DNA from: Nostoc sp. NMS4
Lineage (GTDB): Bacteria > Cyanobacteriota > Cyanobacteriia > Cyanobacteriales > Nostocaceae
NCBI RefSeq assembly: GCF_017115095.1
Contig: NZ_JABXKI010000165.1
Location: 1-64,000 of the forward strand
Length of the DNA stretch: 64,000 nucleotides
Reading direction: 5' to 3'
The notes under the pieces were generated by a model. The model did no database searches. It had not been told where the DNA came from and saw nothing but the letters and a program-made list of their open reading frames with translations. The position numbers were made by a program, and so were the translations under genes. The stretch's first letter is position 1, and each line of letters begins with the position of its first letter. Below are positions 22,922 through 63,715 of this stretch, one piece after another.

Positions 22922-22929
22922 GGATCAAT

Positions 22930-27491: not shown

Positions 27492-27758
27492 GAGCCTAAA
27501 CCTTGCGATACCTTGTTCACTGCCTTGTCTTTTAGCTTCATACCATAGTTATAATCATCCAAGTTTCATTCCCAGGAATGATTTATACAGTCTTAGAAGT
27601 GTGATAAAAATGCTGGGTTAGGTTATAAGCAGTGCAGCTTGGCAAAAAGAACTATCCAGTTGAGAAATGTTAAAAAGCTGATGACACAAGCAATATTCCT
27701 CCAGCATAGCTGCCTACTAACTTCTAATAAATAACAATACTTGCGAAGGGGTTTAATT

Positions 27759-41825: not shown

Positions 41826-42767
41826 TCATTTCTGTTGCCTCCACTCGATTTTGTACTCCCGTTCCACAGCAGCCAGCAGCTTTGCCTGCAAGGATGACAG
41901 ATACGGTTTAGCTTGTTTCCCCAACCCCTGCAACAGCCAATCCACAGCTTCTTCACGGCTGGCCACTTGATGCAACTGCCGTAACCTCACACATAGCTGC
42001 TGCATGAATTGGCAATCTTCATCAAGCAATTCCAGTGATTTCAGGTGTTCAATCTTCACGGTATAATCGCCGTCCCATGTCTGGACTGTACAACTATATT
42101 CGCCAACATGAGTTACCACGCCCCAATAACCCGCTTTACCCCTTAAGTCTGGGTCATCTTTAGGCAGAAGAATGCATATTTCACCAATATGGTAAGGATT
42201 GGGTACTTTCGTCCTTTCACGTATCCTATCCACAACATCTTTCACTATGCGACCGGATGGAATCTTATTGCCAGCTTGCTCTACTGCCTGCTGCCAGACA
42301 TCCGCTTGCACAGCCGGTTCCAACTCTGCTTTCGCCAAAAACCGCAATTGTCGTTCGTTGGTCGGCATTGGAATTTGCCGACCATTGGTCGGCAAAAACT
42401 TTTGAAGATTCTCATAAACCACAGTTGCCGAAATCTTCAAGTACGCCGCGTCACGACTATAATTGAAGCGTTCGCGGCAATACTCCTCGAAAGTCCGGTG
42501 CGTGGAACGGTACAGCCGTCTGTCCCGCAACTCCATCAGCGCCTGACCTGCTGACAAAAATGCCCTTTCTACCTGACGTTCCAATTGCAAGCGTAAGCTT
42601 TGTTCTTCCTCGGTCAACTCTCTTATTTCAACAGCAGTCACCGTAATCGTTGCTGAGGCTAGGTTGTCTTGGCCAGAAGTATTTTCGGGAGCAGAGTCGG
42701 TTGCTGGCTTTGGTTCACCAGATGCCAGAGGGATAACTTTCTTGCGTCTAGATGGTGGTTTGTTCAT
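41826..42767 (-). CDS. NERQ-motif plasmid maintenance protein (ParB-like DNA-binding N-terminus)
   Basis: 313 residues from ATG 42767, which has GAGGTGG before it; the longer track start adds an implausible N-terminus. The first part is disordered and basic. A helical DNA-binding-like region follows with TFEEYCRERFNYSRDAAYLKI and PTNERQLRFLAKAELEP. A beta-rich SH3/KOW-like domain (GYWGVVTHVGEYSCTVQTWDG) precedes a helical tail. The same order (FEKYC, NERQ, beta domain) occurs in the protein at 54310, next to the replication gene. I infer a plasmid partition or copy-control role. A 19-bp palindrome lies inside the NERQ-coding part. Confidence 0.75.
   Translation of the reverse strand: MNKPPSRRKKVIPLASGEPKPATDSAPENTSGQDNLASATITVTAVEIRELTEEEQSLRLQLERQVERAFLSAGQALMELRDRRLYRSTHRTFEEYCRERFNYSRDAAYLKISATVVYENLQKFLPTNGRQIPMPTNERQLRFLAKAELEPAVQADVWQQAVEQAGNKIPSGRIVKDVVDRIRERTKVPNPYHIGEICILLPKDDPDLRGKAGYWGVVTHVGEYSCTVQTWDGDYTVKIEHLKSLELLDEDCQFMQQLCVRLRQLHQVASREEAVDWLLQGLGKQAKPYLSSLQAKLLAAVEREYKIEWRQQK
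42388..42406. repeat. Intragenic palindrome TGCCGACCATTGGTCGGCA
   Basis: A perfect 9-bp-arm palindrome around one base, with a partial third copy GTTGGTCGGCATTGG at about 42358. It lies in the codons just before the NERQ motif. The CCATTGG core recurs in the doubled GGAACCATTGGTTCC inside the related gene at 54757-54804. Confidence 0.7.
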
Positions 42768-43126
42768 TGCCCCACCTCTAGGCTGACAGCAGTCGAACAA
42801 ATATTGAATTGTGTGATCATGAAATATAGTGTTTTTATTTATGCCCCCATCCTTTAAACAGGTTGGGGTTTTCATTGCTTTTTATATTTTGCACCGATGG
42901 AAGAATACTTTGACGAAAATCAGTCCAATACCACAGTTAACAAGAAAGACTTCAGTTGTCAGGAGCCTGAATTCAATTCTGATTTCTGACTTCTGCCAAC
43001 TGAATTCAATTTCAGCTTATTCTAGAAAATACCCTCTTCAGCACATGGGTAAAACAACGGCTAATGATTGATTATTTAACAGCGAGTATTACATTTGGGG
43101 TAACTATATAAATCTCATCTAGGTTG

Positions 43127-44214: not shown

Positions 44215-46467
44215 ATGACAAAAGCTTTATCCTGGCTTATTAAGGGCAGCACTTTGTTTTGTTTATTGCCTTGGGAGCCAATTGCGGCACAAATTGTTCC
44301 AGATGCAACCCTAAGAGTCAACTCCAGCGTCACAATAGAGGGTAATAATACCAGTGCGATAACTGGAGGAACCCAAGCCGGAAGCAATTTGTTCCATAGC
44401 TTTGAACAGTTTTCTGTACCCACAGGAAGCGCAGTCTATTTCAAAAATGCCCCAGACATCCAAAACATTTTGACAAGAGTGACGGGTAGCTCAGTATCTA
44501 ATATTGATGGTTTAATTCGAGCTAACGGCATAGCCAACGTATTTCTTATTAATCCCAATGGGATTATTTTTGGGCTGAATGCTTCACTGAACATTGGCGG
44601 CTCGTTTTTCGGCACTACTGCCAGTAATATTAAATTTGCTGATGGCATCTCCTTCGATGCTAAACCCCTTAGTGGTGCAGAACCTCTGTTGACAGTGAGC
44701 GTGCCTGTGGGATTAGGATTTGGGACAAATGCTGGAAATATTCGCGTCTTTGGAGACGGACAAGGTATAAGAAAAACTTCAAACCTCATAGATACTAGTT
44801 CTGGTCTGCGCGTGCAGCCAAATCAAACCTTAGCTTTGGTGGGTGGTAATATATTACTCTCAAGTGGAACGCTTAAAACAACAGGGGGACAGATTGAATT
44901 AGGCAGCGTGGCTGGAGCGGGTTTGGTCAATCTGATTCCTACAGATAAAGGCTGGACGTTGGGATATTCAGGCATCTCAGCCTTTGGAGAGATCCAGTTA
45001 TCTGGAGCAGCAGCAGTTGATGCCAGTGGGAATGGTGGTGGCAATATTCAAATACAAGCCATGAAGCTAATGCTAGACGGTGGTTCTCAGATTGAGTCCA
45101 GCACATTAGGAGCAGGAACGGGAGGAACATTGAAAATTAATGCTTCAGATTCAGTGAACCTGGTGGGATTACCAGAAGTTGATTCGTTTTTCAACACTGG
45201 TATATCGAGCCTAGTTTACCCAAGAGCTACCGGATCGGGTGGCAACATCAATATTGAAACTGGGCGGTTAAATGTCCGGGATGGAGCAGGGATCGCTGCT
45301 GGTACGTATGGCTTTGGAAATGCTGGTTCCATAAAGGTCTTAGCTCATGATTCAGTGGAAGTGCTGCGAAAACCAACAGCGAATGCAGGCAGTTCCATAA
45401 CAAGTTTGGCCCAACGAGGATCTACCGGTTCTGGCGGTAACATCAAGATTGAAACTGCGCGGTTAAGTCTACGCTCTGGAGGAGTGATATCATCAGGCAC
45501 ATTTGGGCAGGGTTCGGGAGGCAACGTATCTATAACTGCTCACGAAGAAGTGCAAGTAACCGGAAAGTCATTAACTGGTAATTCTCCTAGCAGAATATCA
45601 GCTCGAACTGGAGGAACTGGAAAGGCCGGAAATCTGACAATCGAAGCAGAACGATTAACTGTCACTGATGGTGGGAGAGTAAATATTGGTGGTGAAAAAA
45701 TTCCAAAAAATCTCAACTTTCAGCCAGGACAAGGAAATGCAGGAACCCTCCGAATCAACGCAGACAGTATCAATCTAGACAGAGGTACTATCACAGCTGG
45801 CACAGAGGGCGGCACAAAGGGCGAAGGAGGCGACATTTTCTTACACTCTGGTGACTTACAATTACGTGACAGTATCATTACTGCAACTGCTGGGGGTAAT
45901 GGTGACGGCGGCAACATCACTATCAACACAGATATCCTAGTTGCAATAAAAAATAGCAGAATCACCGCAAATGCCTTTGAGGGTCGTGGTGGGAATATCA
46001 CAATTAATGCTAAGGGACTATTCCTTTCCCTTAATAGCTTAATAACAGCTAGTTCCAAGTATGGAATTAACGGTACGGTTAAATACAACATCGCTGATAC
46101 TAACATTTACTCTACTCAACTAAAAGCAGAAGTAATTCCAATAACTCCTCAAATCACCCCAGTTTGTCAGTCACCAGCAGGCACAGAAGTAAGTAGTTTT
46201 CGAGTTAGTAGTACTCGCAATCTCCAATCTAAGCCTAACAACCTGATGTCTAACAATGTTGAGCAAAGTAACTCTGTTCCAGTTCCAGTTTTTAATAATT
46301 CACATAATCCTAAATCATTAATAAGTAACCAAGCTACACAAATCATAGAAGCCAACGTTTTGATTCGGGATTCTCAAGGGAATTTAGTTTTGACGACAGA
46401 CCAAGCAAATCCAACCTGGGATAATGCTTCACTGTCTGCAAGTTCTTGTTTTTCAGGATCTCAGTGA
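44215..46467 (+). CDS. FHA N-terminal domain exoprotein (TpsA-like, two-partner secretion)
   Basis: A secreted or surface protein of 750 residues. A signal peptide (WLIKGSTLFCLLPWEPIAAQ) leads into the TPS domain: GSNLFHSFEQFSVP and VFLINPNGIIFG are the hallmark motifs. The rest is a right-handed beta-helix of repeats such as GSGGNINIETGRL and GSGGNIKIETARL. No TpsB (FhaC-like) pore gene is adjacent, so export would use one elsewhere. The CHAT protease gene follows after 15 bases, a pairing frequent in cyanobacteria. The C-terminal ~120 residues are unordered. Confidence 0.93.
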   Translation: MTKALSWLIKGSTLFCLLPWEPIAAQIVPDATLRVNSSVTIEGNNTSAITGGTQAGSNLFHSFEQFSVPTGSAVYFKNAPDIQNILTRVTGSSVSNIDGLIRANGIANVFLINPNGIIFGLNASLNIGGSFFGTTASNIKFADGISFDAKPLSGAEPLLTVSVPVGLGFGTNAGNIRVFGDGQGIRKTSNLIDTSSGLRVQPNQTLALVGGNILLSSGTLKTTGGQIELGSVAGAGLVNLIPTDKGWTLGYSGISAFGEIQLSGAAAVDASGNGGGNIQIQAMKLMLDGGSQIESSTLGAGTGGTLKINASDSVNLVGLPEVDSFFNTGISSLVYPRATGSGGNINIETGRLNVRDGAGIAAGTYGFGNAGSIKVLAHDSVEVLRKPTANAGSSITSLAQRGSTGSGGNIKIETARLSLRSGGVISSGTFGQGSGGNVSITAHEEVQVTGKSLTGNSPSRISARTGGTGKAGNLTIEAERLTVTDGGRVNIGGEKIPKNLNFQPGQGNAGTLRINADSINLDRGTITAGTEGGTKGEGGDIFLHSGDLQLRDSIITATAGGNGDGGNITINTDILVAIKNSRITANAFEGRGGNITINAKGLFLSLNSLITASSKYGINGTVKYNIADTNIYSTQLKAEVIPITPQITPVCQSPAGTEVSSFRVSSTRNLQSKPNNLMSNNVEQSNSVPVPVFNNSHNPKSLISNQATQIIEANVLIRDSQGNLVLTTDQANPTWDNASLSASSCFSGSQ

Positions 46468-46482
46468 TCAAAAGATATAAAA

Positions 46483-48987
46483 ATGATCTCACCTCAATGT
46501 TGCTTTAAATATCTTTTCTCAGGCATTCTAGGGCTGTCTCTAATTTTAATTCAATCATCTTCCCCTGCCCAGACTGTAAAAAAAGAAGAAGAATTTCTCA
46601 AAAATCAAGCGGTATCCCTGACTTCTTCAGGTCACGAACAATTAGCTCTAGATCAGGCGAATGAAGCTTTAAAAATTTGGCAGGAATCTACCAAAATTTA
46701 TCGCCAACTAAACGACCAAGAGGGAGTTACGGAAAGCCTAATTAATCAAAACCTTGCTTTCCAAGCATTAGGATTACATAAACAAGCTTGCAATACTCTT
46801 TTAGAAGCTTTAAAGTTGAATACAATTCTAGATATTTGCGATCCGACTTTGCAGCAACCCGCTCTTGCTCAAAAAGAGCAACTGACGGCAGTAATCGGTA
46901 AGCAGAAACCAACATCAGTTAACTTGCTTGGATTACAGAATCTAGGAGAAGTCTTGCGGATTTTGGGGAAGTTTACTGAATCGGAAACAGTTCTACAAGA
47001 AACATTAACGCTGGCAAAACTTGTATCCTCATCAAAGATTAGTGGGATTTATCTGTCTCTGGGTAATATCGAACAGTCAATTTATCAGCAATTGCAAGAT
47101 AAATCTTCTTGGATAGAGGAACCACTTTTTCGAGAGCAGATTGCTAATATTATTCCACAAAAGGCGCAAAAATCACTCTTGTATTACCAAATACTAGAAA
47201 ACATACCAAATATCTCGAAATCAGCGAAACTGCAAGCTCAGTTGAATCATTTGACTTTACTGATAAGTTGGGAAAAATGGCTAAGTCATCAACCAAATCA
47301 AGCAAACCTCCATCTGAAAGTTAATCAACAAATTCGAGTATTGGTGAATCAAATAGATGAAAATTCTTCTGCCTTTTTGGAGTTATCACCTGAGCCATCT
47401 ATTCATGCTCGGTTGAATTTTGCTAATAACCTCAGCCAGATTCCAGATGAACAATTGAAATCAGTAGCGATTCGATATACTAAATTAGCCTTAAAAATGG
47501 CTGAAACTATTAATAGTATCCGATGGTTATCCTATAGTTTTGGTACTTTGGGTAAATTATCAACTCAAACAGAACAAAAACAGGCATATTTTCAGAAGGC
47601 TCTAGGATTTGCTCAATCAATTCGGGCTTCGGATATCGCCTACCAATGGCAGCAGCAGTTAGGACTAATTTACCAAAAGCAGGGAAAAACTGAGTTAGCG
47701 ATTCAGAACTATAATGCTGCGATCGCAAACATGACTCAAGTTCGTGATAGTCTTTTGTCAAGTAACGGAGATTTACAGTTATCGTTTCAGGAGGAAATGG
47801 AGCCGACCTATCGCAATTATATGCGATTACTCTTAGCATCTCCTAGTCCTGATTTAAAAAAAGTAATAGAGATAAATGAAGGATTGCAGATAGCACGCTT
47901 AGAAAACTTTCTTCGATGTGGCAAGCTTGACCTTGTTGCTTTGAATCAGCTTCAGAACCTCAATAGCGCCCCAACAGTTATTCACATTATTGATTTAGGG
48001 GATACTATAGAAGTAATTACTCAGTCAACAGATGGCTCACTTCACCACCATTCTATTGAATCTAAACTAGTTCGATTCCAGATAGATCATCTTTTAGAAG
48101 CTTTACAAAATGAAAATTTTTCTGAAGTAGGCGAAAGTAGCATTACTACTTCTTCTCAAGGAATTTATGAAAAGCTAATTGCACCAATTAAAACATATCT
48201 ACCCCCATCAGGAACACTCGTATTCACTTTAGATAAATCTTTCCAAAGCATACCAATGGCATTGTTATATGATGGAAAACATTATCTAATAGAGCGTTAC
48301 AGTATTGCAGAAACTTTAGGTTCCAGAATTAGACAGCCTAGAGTCTTGCATGAAAACCAGATGATAGCTTTAATAGCTGGACTATCAAAACTAAGCCCCA
48401 GTTCTATAGATCCAAATGCACCTAAAAATATGGAGAATTTGCTCCCATCTAAACAAGAAATAGAAAATGTAGAAAAACAAACCTTATCGTCAGTTGCCTT
48501 GTTAGACAAGAAGTTTACCCTTAAAAGGTTCAAAGAAGAACTAACTCAAAATAATTTTCCTATTGTACATATTACTACCCACGGTCAATTTAGTTCTGAC
48601 CCACTCAAAACAGTACTGGTTGCCTATGACAAGCTAATTAATATTAGAGACTTTGACAGCTTAATCAGAGGTAAAACTGAAAATAGTCAAGATGCAATTG
48701 AGTTACTTGTTCTCAGCGCCTGCGAAACTGCTAAAGGCAACAAGCAGTCAGCAATGGGTATTGCGGGAATAGCTGCTACCGCAGGTGCGCGTAGTACTGT
48801 TGCTACTTTGTGGCGCGTGGATGCCAATTCTACCGCTTTGCTTATGCAAGAATTTTATAAAGGTTTGAACAATGGCTTGCCAAAAGCAGAAGCACTACGT
48901 CAGGCGCAATTGAGTTTACTGTCAAATCCTAAATATAAAAAGCCTTATTATTGGGGTGGGTTCCTACTGGTTGGAAGCTGGTTGTAA
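46483..48987 (+). CDS. CHAT domain protease with TPR-like repeats, secreted
   Basis: A caspase-HetF/TPR protein of 834 residues. The N-terminus carries a signal-peptide-like segment (YLFSGILGLSLILIQSSSPAQT). Helical TPR-type repeats fill about 40-470. The C-terminal CHAT peptidase domain has the His/Cys dyad: HITTHGQF (His about 700) and VLSACETAKG (Cys about 747), then GARSTVATLWRVD. CHAT domains are caspase-like cysteine proteases. It follows the FHA gene closely and its 3' end overlaps the convergent Fn3/FecR-like gene by 40 bases. With a signal peptide, it is predicted to work in the periplasm or outside, perhaps on the FHA protein. Confidence 0.93.
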   Translation: MISPQCCFKYLFSGILGLSLILIQSSSPAQTVKKEEEFLKNQAVSLTSSGHEQLALDQANEALKIWQESTKIYRQLNDQEGVTESLINQNLAFQALGLHKQACNTLLEALKLNTILDICDPTLQQPALAQKEQLTAVIGKQKPTSVNLLGLQNLGEVLRILGKFTESETVLQETLTLAKLVSSSKISGIYLSLGNIEQSIYQQLQDKSSWIEEPLFREQIANIIPQKAQKSLLYYQILENIPNISKSAKLQAQLNHLTLLISWEKWLSHQPNQANLHLKVNQQIRVLVNQIDENSSAFLELSPEPSIHARLNFANNLSQIPDEQLKSVAIRYTKLALKMAETINSIRWLSYSFGTLGKLSTQTEQKQAYFQKALGFAQSIRASDIAYQWQQQLGLIYQKQGKTELAIQNYNAAIANMTQVRDSLLSSNGDLQLSFQEEMEPTYRNYMRLLLASPSPDLKKVIEINEGLQIARLENFLRCGKLDLVALNQLQNLNSAPTVIHIIDLGDTIEVITQSTDGSLHHHSIESKLVRFQIDHLLEALQNENFSEVGESSITTSSQGIYEKLIAPIKTYLPPSGTLVFTLDKSFQSIPMALLYDGKHYLIERYSIAETLGSRIRQPRVLHENQMIALIAGLSKLSPSSIDPNAPKNMENLLPSKQEIENVEKQTLSSVALLDKKFTLKRFKEELTQNNFPIVHITTHGQFSSDPLKTVLVAYDKLINIRDFDSLIRGKTENSQDAIELLVLSACETAKGNKQSAMGIAGIAATAGARSTVATLWRVDANSTALLMQEFYKGLNNGLPKAEALRQAQLSLLSNPKYKKPYYWGGFLLVGSWL

Positions 48988-49952
48988 AATTCCACTAATT
49001 TTAGCCCTGATTGGGCTTTTTCTAACTCTTTGGAATTCTTACTGCTTTTGGCTAACTCAGCTGCGGTCAGGTATTCGGGTTTCGCCTCCTTTGGTAACTT
49101 GGACTTGAGATAGCGATCGCCCAGTACTCTGTAAAGAGTCGGATTTTGGCTATTAGTTGCTGTTGCCGTTTTTAACATCTCAATTGTTTCATTTAAAAGA
49201 TTTTCTGCCGTATAGATAACATCTATGTCAAGAATAGTTTCATCTGGAGGTAGCCCTAAGTCTTTGATGCGTTTAATCTTTTGTGCAATTTGTTCTTGCT
49301 TTGCTACAGACAATACGTCCACAAACGTTTCATCATAGCTAAAAGCTTGACCATCAATATATGCAAAAACATCTATTGTATATGGAGTACCTGGTTGAAA
49401 TTCCTTTTCATCACTTGGGTAGGCAAGCCGAGTTTGATTTACAACTTTCTCCCACCCAAACTCGTAACTTTTTACTTTGACTTTGTAAGAAGTAGCACCC
49501 TTAACAGCAGTCCAAATTATTTCGGGACGAGAATTCAATGTTGATGTGCTATAAGGAGAAATGATTGTTGGCTCATCGCTCCCTTCTGTGCCACCTTTTT
49601 GTATGCGACATCCATCAGTGTTGCTTGGATTGCAAGGAGATGAGGCTTGTTCAGATTCTGCACATTTATCAAGAGGAATAGTCCCACTAGGTAAATTTAA
49701 AAATTTTCCAGAACTAAAACATAAGAATTGTACAGAACCACCATTTAAAACCTCTAATTCATCTCCCTTACAAATTAAACTTCCTACTTCAAATCGTTTG
49801 TCGCCTTTGCTTACTATCCTTCCTAACTGTGGCTCACAACGAGCCTGATTTCTTCTTACTCTTATGAGCGGTACATTGGCTAGCAATGGTAGGTGAATTA
49901 GTATTAGAGAAGTTAAACAGCACATTCCCCCCAAAAAAATCAGCTTTTTCAT
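48948..49952 (-). CDS. Secreted FecR/Fn3-like protein with helical C-terminus
   Basis: 334 residues. A signal peptide (LIFLGGMCCLTSLILIHLPLLAN) precedes a FecR-like beta region (SLICKGDELEVLNGGSVQFLCF) with four Cys. A fibronectin-type-III-like domain follows (PEIIWTAVKGATSYKVKVK). The C-terminal ~110 residues are TPR-like helices. I know similar proteins only as companions of CHAT/FHA genes in cyanobacteria. It is the last gene of the minus-strand operon behind the kinase (33-base gap) and overlaps the end of the CHAT gene. A periplasmic sensor or adaptor is likely; function unproven. Confidence 0.75.
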   Translation of the reverse strand: MKKLIFLGGMCCLTSLILIHLPLLANVPLIRVRRNQARCEPQLGRIVSKGDKRFEVGSLICKGDELEVLNGGSVQFLCFSSGKFLNLPSGTIPLDKCAESEQASSPCNPSNTDGCRIQKGGTEGSDEPTIISPYSTSTLNSRPEIIWTAVKGATSYKVKVKSYEFGWEKVVNQTRLAYPSDEKEFQPGTPYTIDVFAYIDGQAFSYDETFVDVLSVAKQEQIAQKIKRIKDLGLPPDETILDIDVIYTAENLLNETIEMLKTATATNSQNPTLYRVLGDRYLKSKLPKEAKPEYLTAAELAKSSKNSKELEKAQSGLKLVEFYNQLPTSRNPPQ

Positions 49953-49985
49953 TGTTTGACAAACATAAATTGTCTTAGCATCTTA

Positions 49986-51944
49986 TCATTTGTCAAGTAT
50001 GCGATCTAGTAATTCTTCTCTCCAGACAAACACTTCTGGTAGGCTAGATTTAGTCAATATACAAGCATCTATATAAGCTCTGGCGTAATTAAGTTGGCCT
50101 AATGATTCTTCTATTTGAGATAGTAAACAATATGCATCTGTTCTTTCACTGTCTAACTTTGTTGCTTTTTCTAAATATTTTTGTGCTTCATTTAACTTAT
50201 TTTGCATTAACCTTGCCCATCCTAAATCTTTATACAACGATGCTTGCAACTCTTTATTATTAGTTTTTTTTAACCCGCTTAACGCTAAAGTAGCTGCGGC
50301 GTTGTAATCCCCTTTTTTATTTTTCAATCTTGCTAAACCTGCAACAGCAAATATTGCTTGATCGCTACTTCTGATAGCGATTTCATATTGCTTTTGTGCT
50401 AAATCATATTCTCCCTGTCTATCATAAAAATCACCTAATCCGTAATGTGATTCCCATTTATTAGGTTTTAATTTAAAAATTATCTCGTAAGTTTTGTTAA
50501 CACAATTGTAGTCATGTAACTGCTGACATGCAATTGCTAAATTATTATAAGCACTATCATCTTTAGGATTATATTTTATAGCTAGTTCGTAATTATTTCT
50601 AGCAATCTTAGGCTCATTTTGATGCTGTAAACCCTTCTCAAAGTAAAAAAATGAGACTGAGTTAGTTAAATTATGTCCATACTTTATTGCTCTTTGAAAG
50701 TCTTTCTCCGCATCGGCATTCCTATTTTCTTTATAAGCTTCTTTACCTTGATTAAAAAAATAATCTGCTACTGTGTATTTTAAGCTATTATTCAAATTCA
50801 CTGCTTTTTGAAAATCGTTCTCAGCTTGGTCAAATTGATTTTCTGCATAAGCTTTTTTACCGGAATCTAAATAATATTTTGCTACTAGAGGTAAAGATGC
50901 ATATATCAAACCAACAATACTCATTAAGCCTAATACAAACGCACTAATTTGAAATGGCTTTGATTTAATTACTCGATTAAGCTTTGATTTACTAGGTAAG
51001 CGCTCCAAACGCTGTATTATTATTTGAGTACTTTGTGGGCGCTGCCCTACAAAAGGAGCCATCATATCATCAAGTAAATCAGCCAAAAATTTATCTATGT
51101 GAAGTGCTTTATCTCTCCAAATTAGTCTTCCTGTGTGCTCGTCCATTTTGATTTCAATTAAAGAAATACCTGTGACTAAGTAAACAAAAGTTCTACCTAA
51201 AGCGTAAAAGTCTGACTGTGGTACAGCTTGTCCATGAATTTGCTCTAAGGGAGAGTAACAAGCTGTCCTAACAGCAGTTATTTCGTAACCATTACCGAAT
51301 CCTGTAGTAGTTCCTCCACTGGTACTAACTTTCGCAAAGTAGGTTCTACTAAGCTGTCTTGCTCCACCAAAGTCAACAAGTGCTAAATTCCCATCGGGTT
51401 GATGAACAATGTTTTCTGGTTTGATATCTCTGTGGAAGAAACCAGACCGATGAACTAAATCAAGAATCTCCATCAACTGCAATAACCATTCATAAGCCGT
51501 ATCTTGGCTAATTCGTCCGTAAGATTGTACCCACTGAGTTAAGTTCTCTCCTTCAAACTTATGCATAACTAGACAATGTAGTTCTAGAAGATTATCATTC
51601 AGTCTAAATGTGAAATAATCTTCCCTATTAGACTTGGGAATCCCAGGATGGTCTAGGATTTGTAATATGAGTGATTCTCTTTTAAGTAGCTCAACTAACT
51701 TAGAATCATCAATCCATCTTAATACTTTCATTACTCTTATCTGAGGCTGAGGATGTTCTTCTGTGCCAGTATCCTCTATCTCAAAGACATCTGTGTAAGT
51801 ATATGGATTTTGCTCTAAAGAACGCAACGGGCGCAGCAAACGAATACGCCCGTTTATTATCAATGGATTTCCACATGCTAAACAATTTTCAGCGCTATCA
51901 GGATTATGACGCTGGGTGCAAAGAGGATTTATGCAGTAGCCCAC
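49986..51944 (-). CDS. Serine/threonine protein kinase with zinc ribbon, membrane helix and TPR repeats
   Basis: 652 residues from a GTG with AAGGGAAG 7 bases before it. An N-terminal zinc ribbon (CINPLCTQRHNPDSAENCLACG) is followed by a Hanks-type kinase domain with HRDIKPENIV and DFGGARQL. Then comes one membrane segment (FVLGLMSIVGLIYASLPLVA, about residue 340) and about eight TPR-like repeats to the C-terminus. Topology would put the kinase inside and the repeats in the periplasm. It overlaps the NB-ARC gene by 16 bases, so the two are translationally linked. Confidence 0.93.
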   Translation of the reverse strand: MGYCINPLCTQRHNPDSAENCLACGNPLIINGRIRLLRPLRSLEQNPYTYTDVFEIEDTGTEEHPQPQIRVMKVLRWIDDSKLVELLKRESLILQILDHPGIPKSNREDYFTFRLNDNLLELHCLVMHKFEGENLTQWVQSYGRISQDTAYEWLLQLMEILDLVHRSGFFHRDIKPENIVHQPDGNLALVDFGGARQLSRTYFAKVSTSGGTTTGFGNGYEITAVRTACYSPLEQIHGQAVPQSDFYALGRTFVYLVTGISLIEIKMDEHTGRLIWRDKALHIDKFLADLLDDMMAPFVGQRPQSTQIIIQRLERLPSKSKLNRVIKSKPFQISAFVLGLMSIVGLIYASLPLVAKYYLDSGKKAYAENQFDQAENDFQKAVNLNNSLKYTVADYFFNQGKEAYKENRNADAEKDFQRAIKYGHNLTNSVSFFYFEKGLQHQNEPKIARNNYELAIKYNPKDDSAYNNLAIACQQLHDYNCVNKTYEIIFKLKPNKWESHYGLGDFYDRQGEYDLAQKQYEIAIRSSDQAIFAVAGLARLKNKKGDYNAAATLALSGLKKTNNKELQASLYKDLGWARLMQNKLNEAQKYLEKATKLDSERTDAYCLLSQIEESLGQLNYARAYIDACILTKSSLPEVFVWREELLDRILDK

Positions 51945-53365
51945 AAGGTAACTTCCCTTGTTTGTATTGTATCTGGTATTTTATGCACTAATCCCAATGG
52001 ATCAACTAAAATATACTTCTTAATAGATGCTTGTAAACTATAACTAGCTTCTCGTTTGTTTGATTTCCCAGCAATTTCAATTAACGAGCGTTGTTCTAAA
52101 ACTTCTATTGCTGTTATTAGTTCAAAAACTGACAACTTTAAATCTACTCGCTCTTTTAAATTATCAATGAGTTTAGAGAATTGAATGGGAGTCGAATTTT
52201 GTGACATTTCTTCTGCTAAATAAATCATTATTTGCCTTTGAAGATTACTTAAAAGTCCAACTTGTCCAAATTGCTGATGTAGCATTGTTTCAAGTTGAGG
52301 ATCAATCATAGTAGTTTGATATCTAAAAAACGTTTTAACACTCCCTTCAAAAAAACGATTAATTCTGTCAGCCAACGCTTCTAAACTTGATGGATTACCA
52401 TGATAATTTTCAATTAATCGCTTACATTCCTGCCCAGTTAAACCTTTTTCTTGTAATATTTGCATTCCTGTATTTACATCTAAACCTTCTAATTTGAAAG
52501 AGCGAATAGGTAGTTTTGTAGTCACAGAAGCAAATTCTTTTAAAGGCAACTGACTTGTTATAATAATGCAGCTTTGATGCTTTCCTTCTGTAAGTCTTAA
52601 AAGGAATTTTTCATATTGTAATCTTTTTCCAAAATCATCTGCTAACAATAGCTTTTCAAATCCATCAATTACTAGCAGACAACGATGTAAATGAAGCTGT
52701 TTTGATAGTAAAGATATGCTATCTATAAAAGAATTTTCATTTGCTTCTATGTCAAAATTTTTATTTAAATCAATGACTAACTCATCAATTGATAACGAAT
52801 GATTAATTGTTTTCCAGATTACACATTCATATATACTGTTTAAAGAATCAAAAAGTATTTCTTCAACCAATCTAGCGGCTAATAAAGTTTTTCCTATTCC
52901 TCCAACTCCAGTAAAAACTATACAGCGCTCTTTAAATAGAGTAATTTGTTTCTTAAAATAGTTAATTTCATCTTTTCGTCCATAAAAAGATTTGATTTTA
53001 GGCAGCTCCCCATAAATTCTAATATTCCCAACGAAACTATCGTTATCCAGTCTGGATGCCTCTTCCTTCAGATAATCGCTCTTTGCTAGTTTAAGCAAAA
53101 TAGATTTCAACGATATTTTTGTTACTTTCACTCCATCACCAATAATTCCTGAAAGCATACTCCATAGTGGTGGAGCTACTTTCTGCTGCAAATAGTATGC
53201 GTTATACCCCGAATCACTTGCCATCTCTTTATAATCTTTACTATCCCAAACTCCCTTAATAAGAACTTTTTCTACTTCTGTTAAATACCTTCCCGTAGAT
53301 TGAAACACTTGTTCTTCTAATACAGCTAATACTCTTTTTACGTCTAAAACTTGGCTTGAATTCAT
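51929..53365 (-). CDS. NB-ARC (STAND) ATPase with N-terminal vMAP-type HTH
   Basis: A 478-residue signal-transduction ATPase. The N-terminal ~90 residues (FQSTGRYLTEVEKVLIKGVW...) match the helix-turn-helix at the head of many cyanobacterial NB-ARC proteins. The nucleotide site has FTGVGGIGKTLLA, and Walker B is LLVIDGFEKLL. A winged-helix region follows and the protein ends without WD40 or TPR repeats, so it is a short form. It starts the minus-strand operon with the kinase and FecR/Fn3-like genes. STAND ATPases switch between closed and oligomeric states on sensing a signal; the trigger is unknown. Confidence 0.9.
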   Translation of the reverse strand: MNSSQVLDVKRVLAVLEEQVFQSTGRYLTEVEKVLIKGVWDSKDYKEMASDSGYNAYYLQQKVAPPLWSMLSGIIGDGVKVTKISLKSILLKLAKSDYLKEEASRLDNDSFVGNIRIYGELPKIKSFYGRKDEINYFKKQITLFKERCIVFTGVGGIGKTLLAARLVEEILFDSLNSIYECVIWKTINHSLSIDELVIDLNKNFDIEANENSFIDSISLLSKQLHLHRCLLVIDGFEKLLLADDFGKRLQYEKFLLRLTEGKHQSCIIITSQLPLKEFASVTTKLPIRSFKLEGLDVNTGMQILQEKGLTGQECKRLIENYHGNPSSLEALADRINRFFEGSVKTFFRYQTTMIDPQLETMLHQQFGQVGLLSNLQRQIMIYLAEEMSQNSTPIQFSKLIDNLKERVDLKLSVFELITAIEVLEQRSLIEIAGKSNKREASYSLQASIKKYILVDPLGLVHKIPDTIQTREVTLWATA

Positions 53366-54208: not shown

Positions 54209-54316
54209 GTGAAAAATGACATAAGGCCAATACAACAGGGTGTCCGGGTTAAGGCTACATCAAAAATTTTTTCAAACACCTCTCCTAGTGATCACGACAG
54301 GAGAGAAACATGCTGA
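54209..54316 (+). CDS. Small protein (35 aa) coupled to the NERQ-motif gene
   Basis: GTG at 54209 follows AGGGA by 8 bases. It encodes VKNDIRPIQQGVRVKATSKI and ends ...HDRRETC. Its stop overlaps the start of the next gene (ATGCTGA), the usual sign of translational coupling. The peptide is basic and has real-protein composition. It is too short for the ORF track. Function is unknown. Confidence 0.5.
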   Translation: MKNDIRPIQQGVRVKATSKIFSNTSPSDHDRRETC

Positions 54317-55731
54317 CAGTAGATAGAGAAACCAAATCAGAACTTCATTACGATGATCTCAACAGTAGTATCAAAGACACCTTCGCTGCTCTTGACCAAT
54401 TTGAGTTGCAAGCAGTAGAACAGGTTCGCATCATGCATGACGAGCAGATGTACAGAATCGCTGGATACAAAAACTTTGAAAAATATTGCCAAGGCGAATT
54501 GCATATATATGGCGGCTATCGGCGTATAAATCAACTCTTAGGGGCATCAAAAGTTATTGTTGCAGCAGGGGAGTTGGGGTCACAGATTAAAAATGAGCGC
54601 CAAGCCCGTCCTCTTTTGAGGTTAGCCAAAGAACCAGAAAAACTTATTGCTGCGATCACACTGGCTCTTGAATCAAACCCAGACCCTAGTGAATCAGATT
54701 TCGCAGCTGCGGCTAATATTGTTGCCCCAATGCCTTTAGGCAGAAAGCCATTCCATCAGGAACCATTGGTTCCCAAAAATCAGGAACCATTGGTTCCCAA
54801 AAACATGAAAGTCACAATTTCATCACCAGAACATCCCCGTTATGGAGAATCGGGAGTAATTGAGGCTTCGGCTCCGAATAATTCGCAGCAGATTGTCACC
54901 TTCTCTGATGGTGAAAGGCTGCTGGTAAACAACACTGATTTGGATGCCGCAATTGTGTCCCAATCGACTGAGCGTACATATCCTAAAGTTTATGCCGAAG
55001 CGATCGCAGCACTCAAAGAGCAACACAAACTTGAGTTAGAGCGCCTAGAGCAGGAATTGAGGATTGGACTACAAGCAGAAGCGGGGGCTAGAGCCGAAGC
55101 CCAAGTAAGTGAGCAAATCCAATCTCTGCAAGACCTGTACAAGCAGCAGAGGGAGCAAAATATCCAGTTGCAGCAGCGATTGGATGAAATGGAGGGGTTG
55201 AGAAAGCTCGATATTGAGAATCAGCAACTCCACCAACGTATCCAGGAACTAGAAAACGCACTACTTGAACGCCCTCAACAGCAGTGGGGAAATACTATGA
55301 CGCAACAGGCGACTATTGTGTTGAACAAGCAAGTCAAAGAGGCGTTAGAAAAAACCATTGATTTGCGAACTCTTGCAGCCGAACCCCCCAAAGAAAATGC
55401 CCAAGAATGTCTACGGCTCATGGGCATGGCACTGAAAAACCTAAGCGTTGCCATGAACAACACCCAAGCTCTCAAGGCGGCAGCGATAATTTTGGGGAGT
55501 GAACCCACAAAAGAAGCGATCGCAACAAGGACGGAGCAATTACAACTATTACCTGTGGCTATTAGGGAAATTAGGCAAGTACTTGCTCGTCTTGAGTTTA
55601 CATGGCAGGAATTTTGGGCTGTGGCTGAAAAATACGAGGTGATCAAAGCAGACTACTGGGCTGAACTTACCACCCAGGAGACTGATTTAATCACAAAAGA
55701 AAAGGAAAAACAGTTAACAGTTAACAGTTAA
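54310..55731 (+). CDS. NERQ-motif plasmid protein with coiled coil, upstream of the replication gene
   Basis: 473 residues; AGGAGAG lies just before the ATG. The N-terminal region (NFEKYCQGELHIYGGYRRINQLL, then KNERQARPLLRLAKEPEKL) matches the pattern of the protein at 41826 and recalls ParB-type DNA-binding proteins. A beta domain follows (MKVTISSPEHPRYGESGVIE). Then comes a long coiled coil (about 230-330) and a helical C-terminus. A 24-bp tandem duplication adds a second QEPLVPKN to the linker. Partition or replication control is the likely role. A MITE begins at its stop codon. Confidence 0.78.
   Translation: MLTVDRETKSELHYDDLNSSIKDTFAALDQFELQAVEQVRIMHDEQMYRIAGYKNFEKYCQGELHIYGGYRRINQLLGASKVIVAAGELGSQIKNERQARPLLRLAKEPEKLIAAITLALESNPDPSESDFAAAANIVAPMPLGRKPFHQEPLVPKNQEPLVPKNMKVTISSPEHPRYGESGVIEASAPNNSQQIVTFSDGERLLVNNTDLDAAIVSQSTERTYPKVYAEAIAALKEQHKLELERLEQELRIGLQAEAGARAEAQVSEQIQSLQDLYKQQREQNIQLQQRLDEMEGLRKLDIENQQLHQRIQELENALLERPQQQWGNTMTQQATIVLNKQVKEALEKTIDLRTLAAEPPKENAQECLRLMGMALKNLSVAMNNTQALKAAAIILGSEPTKEAIATRTEQLQLLPVAIREIRQVLARLEFTWQEFWAVAEKYEVIKADYWAELTTQETDLITKEKEKQLTVNS
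54757..54804 (+). repeat. 24-bp tandem duplication containing GGAACCATTGGTTCC palindromes
   Basis: Two head-to-tail copies of a 24-bp unit, each with the interrupted palindrome GGAACCATTGGTTCC. They are in frame and encode QEPLVPKN twice. The CCATTGG centre is the same as in the intragenic palindrome at 42388. Confidence 0.85.
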
Positions 55732-55826: not shown

Positions 55827-56028
55827 AGCAGTTTTCGAGCAAACCCGCCACAAAAATAAATCCTAAAACAAAGCCCAGTATTGCTTTTAGTTGTGGCACA
55901 TTTGATTGCAATTCGCTGTAAATAAATGCTCCGTCCTTATCGCTGATAATGCGGATACTTGATGACTGATGAATGCGGCATAGGTGCAATGTCGCTCAGA
56001 TTGTCATGGAAAAATAAAGGTATTGAAT

Positions 56029-59000
56029 GTGAATACAAATAAAAATGCAATTAAGAGTGGCAACAAAGAGCCATTCGAGCCGAAACCAGATTGCAAGGTA
56101 TCAATTGAGCAGATATTACACCCAATTGAATACCCAAACAATCTCAAGGCTGCTGAATACCATGAGTTATATGTTGGTAGTGCCATTCATCCAGCCCTGA
56201 TTGAGAGCTGCTTCTTCCACATCGAAGGAGAATCAATTTACGATTACCTGTTTATCTCCAACAAAATCCCTCGAAAAAATGCAGGTCGAGTCACAGATGC
56301 ATACATAAGGCAATATCAGCATCTATTGCTGGGAGGAACATGGATTCAATCTCTTGACCCGTTTAAAAACTGGCAACCAATGGAGTGGGGGCGGATTAAG
56401 CCCAACTTCCCGCGCATTGATTGGGAGAAAGGTAAACCCGTCAAATACGAGTCACCCCCCAAAACCCCCAACCGCGTTACCTACTTTGATGTTGCTAACC
56501 CCATCTGGGACAAAGTAGCAAAACGTTATTTAATTAAGCGCTATCATTCCCTTTTGGCCCTGCGCTTACTGGATAAACTCAATCCACTAATATTTTGGGA
56601 GTGGGTGAAACAGCATCCAGAGATTCCGATAATATTATGCGAAGGGGAGAAGAAAGCCGCTTGCTTGCTGAGTCTGGGGTTTGTAGCGATCGCACTTCCG
56701 GGAATTTGGAACGGGCGCGTGGGCAAACAAGATTTTGATGAACGGTTGCATCCTGACTTAGTACCAATGGCTCAGGCGGGGCGCAAGTTCATTATTTTAT
56801 TCGACTACGAAACTTCTTCTAAAACCAGGTGGTCGGTGTTTCAAGCCACTGTTCGCACTGCAAAAGCAATCGAATCGGCAGGTTGCTTTTGTGAAGTTGC
56901 ATTACTGCCGGGGCCAGAAAAAGGCGTTGATGATTTTGTAGTTAGTCGCAGTGAAGATGCCAATGCACTACTAACTGCAATTATAGACGATGCCAAATCA
57001 CTTGCCGATTACCAGCGCTCGTATCGGGCTAAGAAATGGGGACTTAGCAAATACAAACCAGATGTCACTATTAATATCAAGTATCTCTCTGAGGCTTTGT
57101 GCATTCCTGAACTTGAAGAAAAATGCTTGAGAGTGCCTGAGCTTTATGAGCTTGAAAAGGAACAACTTTTCACGCCATCTATAAAAGGACATCAAAGAAA
57201 CAAGGAGTCTACCAATTCTGGCGAAGTTGATTCATCCAAATCGAAGAAATCCCCTACCTTCAATTTCCCAAAATCAGGACTGGTTGTACTCTGGAGCGAC
57301 ATGGGTACAGGCAAAACTGAACTTATGCGCTGGTGGCGTAACCAAAACCCCGACGCGCGGTTCCTCAACAATGGGCATCGCGTAAATTTGCTGAAAAATC
57401 TTGCCGAACGACTCAAAACCGCCATGTACTCTGATTTGGGTTACACAGGTTTAGCTCAAGCCCAAGCCCTTAGTATTACTATTGACAGCTTGCATAAGCT
57501 GAATACTCAGTCTCTCACCTACGGCTGCATATTTATAGATGAAGCCTGCCAATACCTTACCCACCTACTACACAGTAATACTTGCAAACAACACCGTGCA
57601 GCAATACTTGAAGTACTGGAATATATAGTATACAATGCGCCACTGGTCGTCATCGCTGATGCACACATGGATGATTTAACGGTAGACTTCTTTCTTGCAA
57701 TGCGACCAAAAGGTGAAGTCCCGTACATTATCAAAAACGAGTGGCGAAACGGTTCACGCACAATTTATTGGTACGAGGGGGATAATTCAAGCGCCCTAGT
57801 CGCCCAAATCTCGGCAGCGCTGATGCTTGGTGAGAAAATCATGGTTGCAAGTGACAGTAAGCGTTTCATCAAGAAACTCGACAAATCCTTTACTATCAAG
57901 TACGAAGAATCTAACTCCGAAAAATCACATACACCACAAAAATGGCGCATTTGGTCGGTTCATTCCGATAATTCTGGCAGCGATGAAAATGTCGCTTTCA
58001 TCAAAGATATCACCAACGCCGTCAAAAACTTTGATGCCTTGTTCACCTCTCCCAGTCTCGGTACTGGTGTCGATATTTCTGAGTATCATTTTGATGTTGT
58101 ATTCGGTGTCTTTCACGGTGTTTCCCAAACCGCTACTGAGTGCGCTCAACAACTGTACCGCTATCGTCCAAAAGTCCCGTTTCATATTTGGGTGGCCCCA
58201 CGTCCTCCCTTTGGTTACAAGGATACCAATGCTACCAAGATTAAAGAGCGCTTGCTCCAAACCAATGAAATGACCGCTTTTCTGTTGCGGATTGACCGTC
58301 AAACAGGTAAGCGCGGAGCCGAGAAAGATTGGGCGCTTGAGGCTTACTGCCAAATTCTTGCCAACCGCCACTATTCTCTCAATAATCTGCGCGATGATTT
58401 GCGATCGCTGCTCACCGAAATGGGCAATACATTTATATGTGTGGGCAGTGATGATGATACTCAATCCCGTGAAAGTTTAAAAGCAGCAGCAGAAGCTTTG
58501 GATCATGCCCACAATTCTCATGTTGCCAAGGCTAAGAATATTACTTTGAGTGAGTACCGTGCCCGTCAGAGCAAAGATTACCTTGACCCTAGCGAAATTT
58601 TTGAATGTGAAAAGTTCCGCATTTCTGATTCTTACGGCATCGAAGTAACCGAATCACTCGTAGAAATGGATAAAGGTGGCCGCTTAATTAGAGCAATTGC
58701 TGGACTTGAAGCCATTTTAGCCCCACCCGAAGAATCGTTTACTGACCCCAAAACTGGGCAAACTTATCCTACACCACCAACAATTGTCACCCAAAAAGAC
58801 CGCACCGAGCGCGACAATCTACCTTTGTGCATCGACTGGGGCAATTATTCGGCGCGGTGGCTGGCTAGATTTAACCTGGGGCTGCATCAGATTCTCACTT
58901 CTTTAGTTGCAGGTGAGGAAGTTACCGCCTCGGATTCCACCTTACTCAAGATGAGGGACATCGCTATACATTGTGCTGCTCACGTCAAAGCAATTCTTGG

Positions 59001-59565
59001 GTTTACTATCCCCAGCGACTGTAAGCCTATTTGGTTGCTAGGAACTTTAGTAGAGCAGCTGGGGCTAAAGTTGACTTTCCGTAAGCAAGGTAAACGCGGT
59101 CAACAGGTGAAACTTTTCTCTTTATCTAAAGAGCAATTGGAATTTGCTCTCCAGGTAATTGCTCATCGCGTGGAAAAGCGTAATCAAAAAGAAAATCGAA
59201 CCTATTACGCTGCTCAAACCCCTGCTGTGTATAGTGTAAACCCTAATCAGCAGCCCGTATCCATCCCCCCCCTTGATGCTATAGGGAACTCCCATTGCCA
59301 AGGGGAGGATACTACCGAATTTGAGTCGCCCCCAACCGATCGCATTACGCTACTCCACTGCGTAGAAATACTTCGCTCTGGTATTTCTCGTGGAGTAGAC
59401 GCAATTAAAGGCATTCTCAAGCGATGGCAGAGTGATTTGCGCTGGGAGACGGTGCTGGAACTTGAAGCGATCGCGGCAAATGAACTGCGACTTGTGGAAT
59501 CTCAAGTTCCTGAATTTTATGAATGGCTCTCGGAAGAAGTGTTACCTATGGAGGGGGCTGGCTAG
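56029..59565 (+). CDS. CyRepA1-family plasmid replication protein (primase-helicase)
   Basis: A large replication initiator of cyanobacterial plasmids. GTG 56029 has AAAGG 8 bases before it and is preferred to the track's GTG at 55984, giving 1178 residues. The N-terminal half holds a TOPRIM-like DUF3854 region: IILCEGEKKAA and FIILFDYET. The helicase/ATPase part has Walker A WSDMGTGKTELMR and Walker B CIFIDEACQYL. The C-terminal third includes LGFTIPSDCKPIWLLGTLVE, of which a degraded second copy is found at 63396. It is the strongest evidence that this region is, or was, a plasmid. It lies behind a NERQ-motif gene and before a tyrosine recombinase. Confidence 0.92.
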   Translation: MNTNKNAIKSGNKEPFEPKPDCKVSIEQILHPIEYPNNLKAAEYHELYVGSAIHPALIESCFFHIEGESIYDYLFISNKIPRKNAGRVTDAYIRQYQHLLLGGTWIQSLDPFKNWQPMEWGRIKPNFPRIDWEKGKPVKYESPPKTPNRVTYFDVANPIWDKVAKRYLIKRYHSLLALRLLDKLNPLIFWEWVKQHPEIPIILCEGEKKAACLLSLGFVAIALPGIWNGRVGKQDFDERLHPDLVPMAQAGRKFIILFDYETSSKTRWSVFQATVRTAKAIESAGCFCEVALLPGPEKGVDDFVVSRSEDANALLTAIIDDAKSLADYQRSYRAKKWGLSKYKPDVTINIKYLSEALCIPELEEKCLRVPELYELEKEQLFTPSIKGHQRNKESTNSGEVDSSKSKKSPTFNFPKSGLVVLWSDMGTGKTELMRWWRNQNPDARFLNNGHRVNLLKNLAERLKTAMYSDLGYTGLAQAQALSITIDSLHKLNTQSLTYGCIFIDEACQYLTHLLHSNTCKQHRAAILEVLEYIVYNAPLVVIADAHMDDLTVDFFLAMRPKGEVPYIIKNEWRNGSRTIYWYEGDNSSALVAQISAALMLGEKIMVASDSKRFIKKLDKSFTIKYEESNSEKSHTPQKWRIWSVHSDNSGSDENVAFIKDITNAVKNFDALFTSPSLGTGVDISEYHFDVVFGVFHGVSQTATECAQQLYRYRPKVPFHIWVAPRPPFGYKDTNATKIKERLLQTNEMTAFLLRIDRQTGKRGAEKDWALEAYCQILANRHYSLNNLRDDLRSLLTEMGNTFICVGSDDDTQSRESLKAAAEALDHAHNSHVAKAKNITLSEYRARQSKDYLDPSEIFECEKFRISDSYGIEVTESLVEMDKGGRLIRAIAGLEAILAPPEESFTDPKTGQTYPTPPTIVTQKDRTERDNLPLCIDWGNYSARWLARFNLGLHQILTSLVAGEEVTASDSTLLKMRDIAIHCAAHVKAILGFTIPSDCKPIWLLGTLVEQLGLKLTFRKQGKRGQQVKLFSLSKEQLEFALQVIAHRVEKRNQKENRTYYAAQTPAVYSVNPNQQPVSIPPLDAIGNSHCQGEDTTEFESPPTDRITLLHCVEILRSGISRGVDAIKGILKRWQSDLRWETVLELEAIAANELRLVESQVPEFYEWLSEEVLPMEGAG

Positions 59566-59671: not shown

Positions 59672-60601
59672 TTAAAGATCCATCAAGTTTAAAGCGCTAC
59701 TGTCATTGGGTCTAGCTTTCAAATAGCGATCGGTGATGGCTAAATTGGCATGACCCAAAGTTTCTTTCACCAGCACTGGATTAGTCCCGCGCTCAATCGC
59801 GTGAGAACCGTGGGCATGACGTAACCAGTGAGCAGAAACCAGTTCGCTTAATCCAGCTTCTTGTGCAATTGCTTTGACAATCGGGTGCAAGTTTTGACGG
59901 TCGAGATGTCCCCCTTTTTGACTTCGGAAAACTGCGTCTGTAGGTAAAGCTTGACCTTTGAACTCCATTAGTTCCGCCCACAGTTTCGGCTTAATGAGAA
60001 TTGTGCGATTTTTGCTCCCCTTGGCTTTTCTCACGTACACCTGTCCACTATCACTGCGGGGTGTCAAATCTACCCAAGTTAAATTACAGATTTCACTTGC
60101 CCGTAACCCTGCCTGATACAAGAGTTTGATAATTAACAAATTACGTAGGGCTGTGTACTGTCGTTTGGAAGTTTTCGCATCAGCTAAATGCTTATTGGCT
60201 GCCCGTATCAACAATTTAATATCAGCTTCATCGAGATAGCGTTCGTTGATTACATCTGGCAATTCACCCAGTTTTAGTGCCATACCCACATTAAAAGGGA
60301 GATATCCAATTTTATGAGCGAAACTAATCAAGCTTTTAGCACAAGCTATGTATATCCGCTTTGTGCTTTCGGCATTGCCCCCAAAGTCAGCGGCGTATTC
60401 TACCAAGTCTTCATAAGTCACTTTTTTGAGCGGCTTGTCCAGAAAATCCAGAAATCGCCTAGTGTATCGCTGGTAAGCCCGAATAGAAGACGACGCTTTT
60501 CCCTCCAGCCACAGCGCAATCAACTTCGCCTCCGCCTGCGCTACTGGCAAGGAAGCAAGAGCCTTTCTATGCGCTGTTATGTGGACAAGAGAGAGCGTCA
60601 T
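59672..60601 (-). CDS. Tyrosine recombinase (XerC/D-like)
   Basis: 309 residues from ATG 60601, which has AAGGGAG 8 bases before it; the track's start 30 bases earlier is inside the control region. The N-terminal core-binding part (RAYQRYTRRFLDFLDKPL) precedes the catalytic residues: Arg in QAGLRASEICNL, HxxR in SAHWLRHAHGSH and Tyr in ITDRYLKARP. It probably resolves plasmid multimers or integrates the plasmid. It faces the replication gene. It differs from the recombinase at 15556 in length and sequence. Confidence 0.92.
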   Translation of the reverse strand: MTLSLVHITAHRKALASLPVAQAEAKLIALWLEGKASSSIRAYQRYTRRFLDFLDKPLKKVTYEDLVEYAADFGGNAESTKRIYIACAKSLISFAHKIGYLPFNVGMALKLGELPDVINERYLDEADIKLLIRAANKHLADAKTSKRQYTALRNLLIIKLLYQAGLRASEICNLTWVDLTPRSDSGQVYVRKAKGSKNRTILIKPKLWAELMEFKGQALPTDAVFRSQKGGHLDRQNLHPIVKAIAQEAGLSELVSAHWLRHAHGSHAIERGTNPVLVKETLGHANLAITDRYLKARPNDSSALNLMDL

Positions 60602-60616
60602 TTTTATTACTCCCTT

Positions 60617-60667
60617 AAAAATCAGACACAATCACAGTTTCGTCTGGTTTTATAGTGTCTGATTTTT
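60617..60667. promoter_or_regulatory. Perfect 13-bp inverted repeat upstream of the recombinase gene
   Basis: AAAAATCAGACAC and GTGTCTGATTTTT are 25 bases apart, overlapping the region where the recombinase promoter and ribosome site must lie. It could be an operator, or a recombination site bound by the recombinase. The spacing is larger than the 6-8 bases of ordinary Xer sites, so an operator is more likely. Confidence 0.65.
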
Positions 60668-63395: not shown

Positions 63396-63715
63396 CTCGT
63401 CGCTGGTAAGGAAATCACTGCTGACGGCGATCGCTGTTGACTGCGCTGCTCACATCAAAAATTTTGGGTTTCACTGTTCCCTCTGACCCCAAACCGATTT
63501 GGCTGTTGGGGTTGTTGTTAGACCAACAGGGGTTAAAGTTAACTTACCGCAAGCAGAGGACAAGGGGTCAACAAGTTAAATTATTTTCTTTATCTAAGAA
63601 AGAATTAGACTTGAATTGGGTTGGTTGGTTGTGGTGGAGATGGAGGAAGTCGCCGCGACGGAACTGCGATCCAAGGAAGGAAGCGACTGTGCCTGATTTT
63701 TACGATTGCGTCTTC
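63396..63715 (+). pseudogene. Frameshifted C-terminal remnant of a second CyRepA1 gene
   Basis: Segments in changing frames follow the intact protein: LVAGKEITAD, then AVDCAAHIK, then ILGFTVPSDPKPIWLLGLLL to VKLFSLSKKELDL, then EMEEVAATELR and VPDFYD. Compared with the complete gene, a short piece after ITAD is deleted and at least two shifts occur. So the island once had another replicon, or the gene was duplicated. Confidence 0.85.

Follow-up and report, generated by a model that had tools for sequence, protein, structure and literature searches.

Background

The described systems that come closest to the locus reported here share parts of it: contact-dependent inhibition (CDI; CdiA-CdiB-CdiI) is a form of two-partner secretion (TPS), the VMAP ternary conflict systems of multicellular bacteria include regulated multi-component sets of cyanobacteria with NTPases (PMC7159879), and HetF and other cyanobacterial CHAT-TPR proteins join a CHAT domain with a putative protease active site to TPRs (PMC8406250). 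Many large plasmids coexist in a cyanobacterial cell, and how they stay distinct and control their transfer is poorly known; information on their replication proteins is likewise limited (PMC10899382). Here we describe a five-gene locus in a 64,000-nucleotide stretch of DNA (the window) that makes up most of a 64.9-kb contig from Nostoc sp. NMS4 (NZ_JABXKI010000165.1). The locus, which we call the module, forms a conserved core within the backbone of a large plasmid, beside the gene for a CyRepA1-family replication protein. We tentatively propose that it may be a plasmid-type-specific signalling system running from the envelope to the cytoplasm.

Five genes in two convergent operons

An earlier note on this DNA, made from the letters alone, had placed five open reading frames here in two convergent operons, and both these positions and the 40-nt overlap at which the operons meet (48948-48987) were confirmed from the sequence:

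44215..46467, plus strand: FHA/TpsA-type exoprotein, 750 aa, with a TPS secretion domain (residues 25-280) and NPNG motif (PF05860 1.4e-64, TIGR01901 1.9e-26)
46483..48987, plus strand: TPR-CHAT caspase-like protease, 834 aa (PF12770 1.1e-51), with a signal-peptide-like N-terminus and predicted catalytic His700/Cys747
48948..48987, both strands: convergent 3' overlap of the CHAT and P3 genes, 40 nt, the P3 stop codon lying antisense to CHAT YYWGGF
48948..49952, minus strand: P3, a predicted periplasmic Cys-rich Fn3/TPR-like protein, 334 aa (Cys pattern, AlphaFold2 (AF2), Foldseek)
49986..51944, minus strand: 4-Cys-prefix Ser/Thr kinase, 652 aa (NF045510, PF00069, TPR models), with one transmembrane (TM) segment at about 335-355 and C-terminal TPRs
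51929..53365, minus strand: NB-ARC STAND ATPase, 478 aa (PF00931), with an N-terminal helical domain resembling a helix-turn-helix (HTH), a C-terminal winged helix and no sensor repeats

Homologous loci were fetched from Nostoc and related genera, with counts limited to loci that had enough flanking sequence. All five genes were in place at 89 of 93 such loci, the FHA and CHAT genes facing the P3 and kinase genes and the NB-ARC gene lying beside that of the kinase, so that the conserved-neighbourhood statistics suggested in the earlier note gave an intact locus and no independent scatter of its members. The P3 and kinase genes shared a strand at 80/80 loci, and the NB-ARC gene was codirectional with them at 39 loci and divergent at 40. 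The length of the CHAT/P3 overlap was also narrowly distributed (40 nt in 41 of 77 loci, 43 nt in 18 and 28 nt in 5), with 40 nt again in Trichormus and Leptolyngbya and 37 nt in Acaryochloris. YYWGGF is a conserved C-terminal motif of the CHAT protein, and the overlap length is probably fixed by the protein constraint on that C-terminus.

Distant cousins of the locus (L271, L275-L278) carry kinase, P3 and CHAT genes as a single colinear operon without FHA, in L275 together with an NB-ARC gene; scans of two cousin P3 proteins gave a match to Fn3 models for one and to TPR models for the other. Since the convergent and the colinear arrangement keep the same partners, CHAT, P3 and kinase in our view act together, and the colinear sets may have a common origin with the plasmid module. 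Collectively, the 89/93 intact loci, the CHAT-P3 identity correlation described below (rho 0.81) and the retention of the kinase-P3-CHAT operon in the cousins strongly support the view that the two convergent operons belong together as one set.

Divergent versions of the module contain a sixth gene, a full ShlB/FhaC-type (TpsB) exporter gene (POTRA_2 and ShlB domains) between those of FHA and CHAT, which is shortened at locus L234 and split at L241. No cognate TpsB gene was found beside FHA within the window. The host genome holds three other POTRA_2 genes away from the module, and their products could therefore export the FHA protein.

Predicted properties of the proteins

The domain calls made from the letters (FHA, TPR and CHAT, kinase with TM segment and TPRs, NB-ARC) were borne out with one exception, the FecR label given to P3: no FecR model matched any of 26 P3 homologues at E 0.1, and P3 as a FecR-type sensor was rejected. 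P3 instead has a hydrophobic N-terminus resembling a signal peptide, a region with six Cys, an Fn3 domain and a helical tail like that of TPR proteins; the six Cys are invariant in 124/124 homologues, and the AF2 model (pLDDT 81) gives Fn3 and TPR folds by Foldseek. In the CHAT protein, Cys747 and His700 are present as predicted catalytic residues, as had been noted, and are kept in 94/94 homologues; no solved structure similar by sequence was found for this protein. The FHA protein, the most variable neighbour of CHAT, largely conserves its NPNG motif among homologues.

On the cytoplasmic side, the catalytic Lys, HRD motif, DFG Asp and four N-terminal Cys of the kinase are invariant in 129/129 homologues, and residues 2-375 match the PADLOC PD-T4-6 model at 7.6e-90, a profile match only. 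The NB-ARC domain (PF00931) is present in 28/28 STAND homologues, with invariant Walker A glycines and Lys; in the AF2 model (pLDDT 82), the core of nucleotide-binding domain and winged helix folds like CED-4, Apaf-1 and plant NLRs (Foldseek, E to 1e-12). We infer that FHA, CHAT and P3 are exported, and the predicted topology, with secreted FHA and CHAT, a membrane kinase with outside TPRs and a cytoplasmic STAND protein, fits the earlier description.

Position beside the plasmid replication gene

The plasmid-backbone setting of the island had been overlooked in the earlier note, as had the CyRepA1 neighbour, the usual limit of one module per plasmid, the allelic variability and the TpsB gene of divergent versions. 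The module and rep in the window are flanked or separated by two further backbone genes:

41826..42875, minus strand: left-flank backbone protein (W41), 349 aa, family unassigned, in 27/80 neighbourhoods examined, between-genome median identity 0.88
54310..55731, plus strand: backbone coiled-coil protein (W54) between the NB-ARC gene and rep, occurring at some loci, no Pfam or NCBIfam match
55984..59565, plus strand: CyRepA1-family plasmid replication protein (NF042913 1.9e-98), most homologues starting near codon 48, which is probably the true start here too

The CyRepA1 gene lies beside the module on the NB-ARC side, within 14 kb, at 80 of the 86 loci with room for it, and on the strand opposite to P3 and kinase at all but one among the loci listed. 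Across 53 Nostoc genomes, close CyRepA1 and P3 occurred together in 42 and were both missing from 10, with one genome having rep only (85% complete) and none P3 only (Fisher 5.6e-10). This link spans three orders: the gene order of the window is kept through to CyRepA1 on plasmid A of Trichormus variabilis ATCC 29413 (module genes AVA_RS26035-26055) and on pREC1 of Acaryochloris marina, and in Leptolyngbya boryana plasmid p1 carries all five genes plus a ShlB gene, with CyRepA1 located at the FHA end. No P3 appeared among the matches listed for two Nostocales plasmids whose CyRepA1 is at 67-69% (AP018309 and AP018209), and the rep region of AP018309 has no annotated module.

Within the PLSDB database, P3 homologues were found on 43 plasmids at 43 places, one on each, and some strains, among them Nostoc C052, C057, ATCC 53789 and UHCC 0302, have three or four plasmids with one apiece. 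The rule of one per plasmid has exceptions, as a single large record of 807 kb (G002:C2) holds three copies. At least 26 of 32 Nostocales module plasmids also carry a gene for an ATPase of the type IV secretion system (T4SS) type, and such genes are found on module-free plasmids too, for which reason T4SS was rejected as the main correlate of the module.

Sequence diversity and coupling between genes

Among Nostoc loci, median pairwise identity was low for all five module proteins (FHA 0.42, CHAT 0.54, P3 0.41, kinase 0.57, NB-ARC 0.40) and high for the flanking proteins (W41 0.88 and W54 0.83, both between genomes, and Rep 0.88), and we therefore describe a diverse module set between conserved flanks. 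Single-linkage type counts at 70% were uninformative for the kinase, with 71 loci falling into one group.

Pairwise identities were strongly correlated between CHAT and P3 (rho 0.81) and between kinase and NB-ARC (0.69), more weakly between FHA and CHAT (0.51) and between P3 and kinase (0.38), and hardly at all between any module gene and Rep (rho 0.01-0.15). FHA also swaps against CHAT, with 45% of pairs whose CHAT proteins are at least 85% identical having FHA proteins below 60%. This pattern suggests two partner pairs, CHAT with P3 in the periplasm and kinase with STAND protein in the cytoplasm, as well as swapping of FHA and of the half formed by kinase and STAND protein.

Modules on co-resident plasmids

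For modules sharing a cell, we compared the number of within-genome pairs at least 70% identical with that obtained from shuffled genome labels across the genus Nostoc. Such pairs were consistently rarer than expected: 0/67 for CHAT (expected 5.1, P=0.003), 0/67 for FHA (expected 3.7, P=0.011), 2/134 for P3 (expected 9.5, P=0.003), 5/147 for kinase (expected 13.0, P=0.004) and 0/144 for NB-ARC (expected 6.4, P<0.001). Rep behaved in the opposite way, with 15 of 32 within-genome pairs in the top 7%, where 2.5 were expected. The pattern supports a rule that keeps same-type modules from sharing a cell and falls short of proving it, because shuffling ignores descent of plasmid lineages; as lineage descent can produce such a pattern, we rejected the pattern as proof of function. 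The rarity of same-type co-residents is at most an indirect hint of plasmid entry exclusion. Given that a plasmid usually has one module and that a cell almost never has the same version twice, the module may let plasmids sense or distinguish their carriers.

CyRepA1 itself had a median identity of 0.93 within genomes vs. 0.88 between them, as if homogenised in the cell. When 900 nt upstream of rep, a candidate determinant of co-residence, were aligned, within-genome similarity exceeded between-genome similarity in every block, the true start of rep being uncertain.

Outside this genus-level test, we found one near-identical co-resident pair, on two plasmids of Nostoc UHCC 0870 (L292 and L293), with 99.6% identity in kinase, 97% in P3, 99.6% in CHAT and 99.8% in FHA/TpsB DNA. 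In one of the two copies, a deletion of about 960 bp spans the CHAT/P3 junction and removes the catalytic His and Cys, and TpsB of that copy is split by a transposase; the two NB-ARC proteins are only 46% identical. The damage could reflect incompatibility between two functional modules or plain loss of a redundant copy.

Other features of the contig

Downstream of rep, the window contains two further genes of backbone context:

59672..60631, minus strand: Xer-type tyrosine recombinase (PF00589 7.5e-30)
61198..63324, minus strand: RecD2-like helicase (PF13245, PF14490)

Integrases adjoin rep on other plasmids too, and a RecD-like helicase lies near rep on p057_K of Nostoc C057. Beyond the helicase, what looked like a small conserved gene at 63437-63799 turned out to be a fragment resembling part of rep. 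The contig also carries a nonribosomal peptide synthetase (NRPS) cluster (18773-32465, with condensation, adenylation, methyltransferase and thioesterase domains and a TubC_N docking domain) and a Tn7-like element (9683-14353, one protein joining a TnsA-like N-terminus to an rve/Mu-type transposase, with a TniB-like ATPase next to it), and genes for a major facilitator superfamily transporter and a P450 lie elsewhere within the window. Integrase, helicase, NRPS cluster and Tn7-like element can be expected for such a plasmid. In genome G023, a separate contig extending beyond 4.5 Mb (C1, near 2868484-2872358) has a 99% identical N-terminal part of FHA adjoining a fragment of rep, probably an integrated plasmid remnant.

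Proposed role and alternatives

The part of the earlier interpretation that stood is that the convergent operons form one envelope signalling and protease set. Building on this, we tentatively favour a plasmid-type-specific envelope-to-cytoplasm signalling system, a reading that falls a little short of an even chance and is drawn from the sequence comparisons above. The FHA exoprotein would be exported through a TpsB pore and act as a variable surface ligand or recognition factor, and the CHAT protease would act in the periplasm with its co-evolving partner P3, which may hold it, activate it or be cut by it. The membrane kinase would then sense the state of CHAT and P3 through its TPR ectodomain and would control the co-evolving, CED-4-like STAND protein with its HTH-like N-terminus; that protein, in turn, might switch plasmid genes (those of the module, rep or transfer) or trigger a response to a mismatched partner. 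The likeliest purpose would be recognition of plasmid type at cell contact, whether for regulated transfer, for surface or entry exclusion, or for keeping co-resident plasmids distinct. A more specific version is possible yet doubtful, namely that the module is a plasmid self/non-self determinant that senses the same type in a neighbouring or incoming cell through surface exoprotein, secreted protease and kinase-STAND relay, with many alleles kept by selection, and of two same-type modules sharing a cell at least one would lose function.

Several observations weigh against the signalling proposal. The coupling of CHAT and P3 may be partly mechanical, since their genes overlap, and identities within one genus are non-independent observations. 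The NB-ARC co-residence effect was not significant at a looser threshold (8 observed, 10.1 expected), and same-type co-residents could be absent through ordinary descent of separate plasmid lineages or through incompatibility determined outside the module. Six loci with room for rep have none nearby, T4SS genes are not confined to module plasmids, and the order of the signalling steps is deduced from predicted topology and co-variation.

Among other explanations, the one that survives best, though we consider it unlikely, is plasmid maintenance, in which kinase and STAND protein (with CHAT) would kill or arrest cells that lose or disturb the plasmid, the surface part being a by-product or a delivery route. 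A location beside rep, usually once per plasmid, would suit such a guard, as would the Apaf-1-like fold of the STAND protein and the caspase-type CHAT domain. However, both the protease and the exoprotein appear to be secreted, which would separate them from the STAND protein; profile searches recognised no toxin or pore domain in the five proteins, and no antitoxin-like pair was seen; and addiction needs no surface exoprotein with its own exporter.

We judge it rather improbable that the module is a plasmid-carried defence against phages or other plasmids. STAND ATPases and CHAT proteases do occur in known defence systems, and the kinase has its strong PD-T4-6 match, but PADLOC kinase models score many Ser/Thr kinases, and FHA, CHAT and P3 had no match among the PADLOC models. 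The module moreover belongs to plasmid backbones and not to defence islands with their shifting content, and surface export would be unusual for defence. Defence and programmed death, both raised in the earlier note, gained no specific support from the comparison of domains, PADLOC models or literature; kin recognition, also raised there, is a possible role.

A role in adhesion or mating-pair stabilisation, with an FHA adhesin varying to match recipient surfaces, CHAT trimming it and kinase and STAND protein controlling expression, seems to us similarly improbable. TPS exoproteins are typically adhesins, most module plasmids carry T4SS-type ATPase genes, and FHA is variable and swaps against CHAT; this would leave the equal variability of the cytoplasmic kinase and STAND protein unexplained, and the module's association with the Rep clade is closer than that with T4SS. 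Finally, a general envelope-stress or environmental signalling cassette, fixed beside rep and drifting with plasmid lineages with no plasmid-level role, would agree with the FHA-less cousins and with divergent co-residents explicable by lineage descent alone, but is very unlikely given the strict link to one Rep family across three orders, a diversity far above that of the flanks and the low rho with Rep.

Together, these comparisons make a hypervariable surface-to-cytoplasm module beside rep a concrete candidate locus for plasmid distinctness and transfer control. The module also unites a caspase-like protease, a kinase and a CED-4-like STAND protein, relatives of the eukaryotic cell-fate toolkit, in a plasmid-borne envelope system.

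Comparison with known systems

Like CDI and other two-partner secretion systems, the module has a variable TpsA-type exoprotein and, in divergent versions, a TpsB (ShlB) gene. It differs in that the FHA protein of the window matched only the TPS domain, with no C-terminal toxin domain or immunity gene recognised, in that CHAT, P3, kinase and STAND protein are added, and in that the version in the window is without its own TpsB. The N-terminus of the NB-ARC protein presumably recalls the HTH domains of VMAP ternary systems, which we take as a lead only. The defining MoxR, vWA and VMAP proteins were not found among the module's five proteins or the scanned neighbours, so that this reading gained no specific support, and the main text on those systems mentions neither CHAT nor hemagglutinin (PMC7159879).

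The 4-Cys-prefix region gives the module kinase its likeness to PD-T4-6-type defence kinases, which is a profile likeness; the module kinase differs in being always in an operon with P3 and in having a TM segment and outside TPRs. HetF, whose CHAT-TPR architecture is shared, is a chromosomal divisome and heterocyst protein (PMC8406250), whereas the module CHAT protein is plasmid-borne and predicted to be secreted.

A search of the open-access literature, with subscription journals and preprints outside its scope, found no description of the five-part combination. Judged on composition and on that literature, the domains are known individually and the composite set appears to be of a new kind. 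Surface or entry exclusion and self-sensing transfer control (TraT/TraS, pCF10, pLS20) would resemble the proposed system in role, and control of this sort would account for one module per plasmid and for type specificity.

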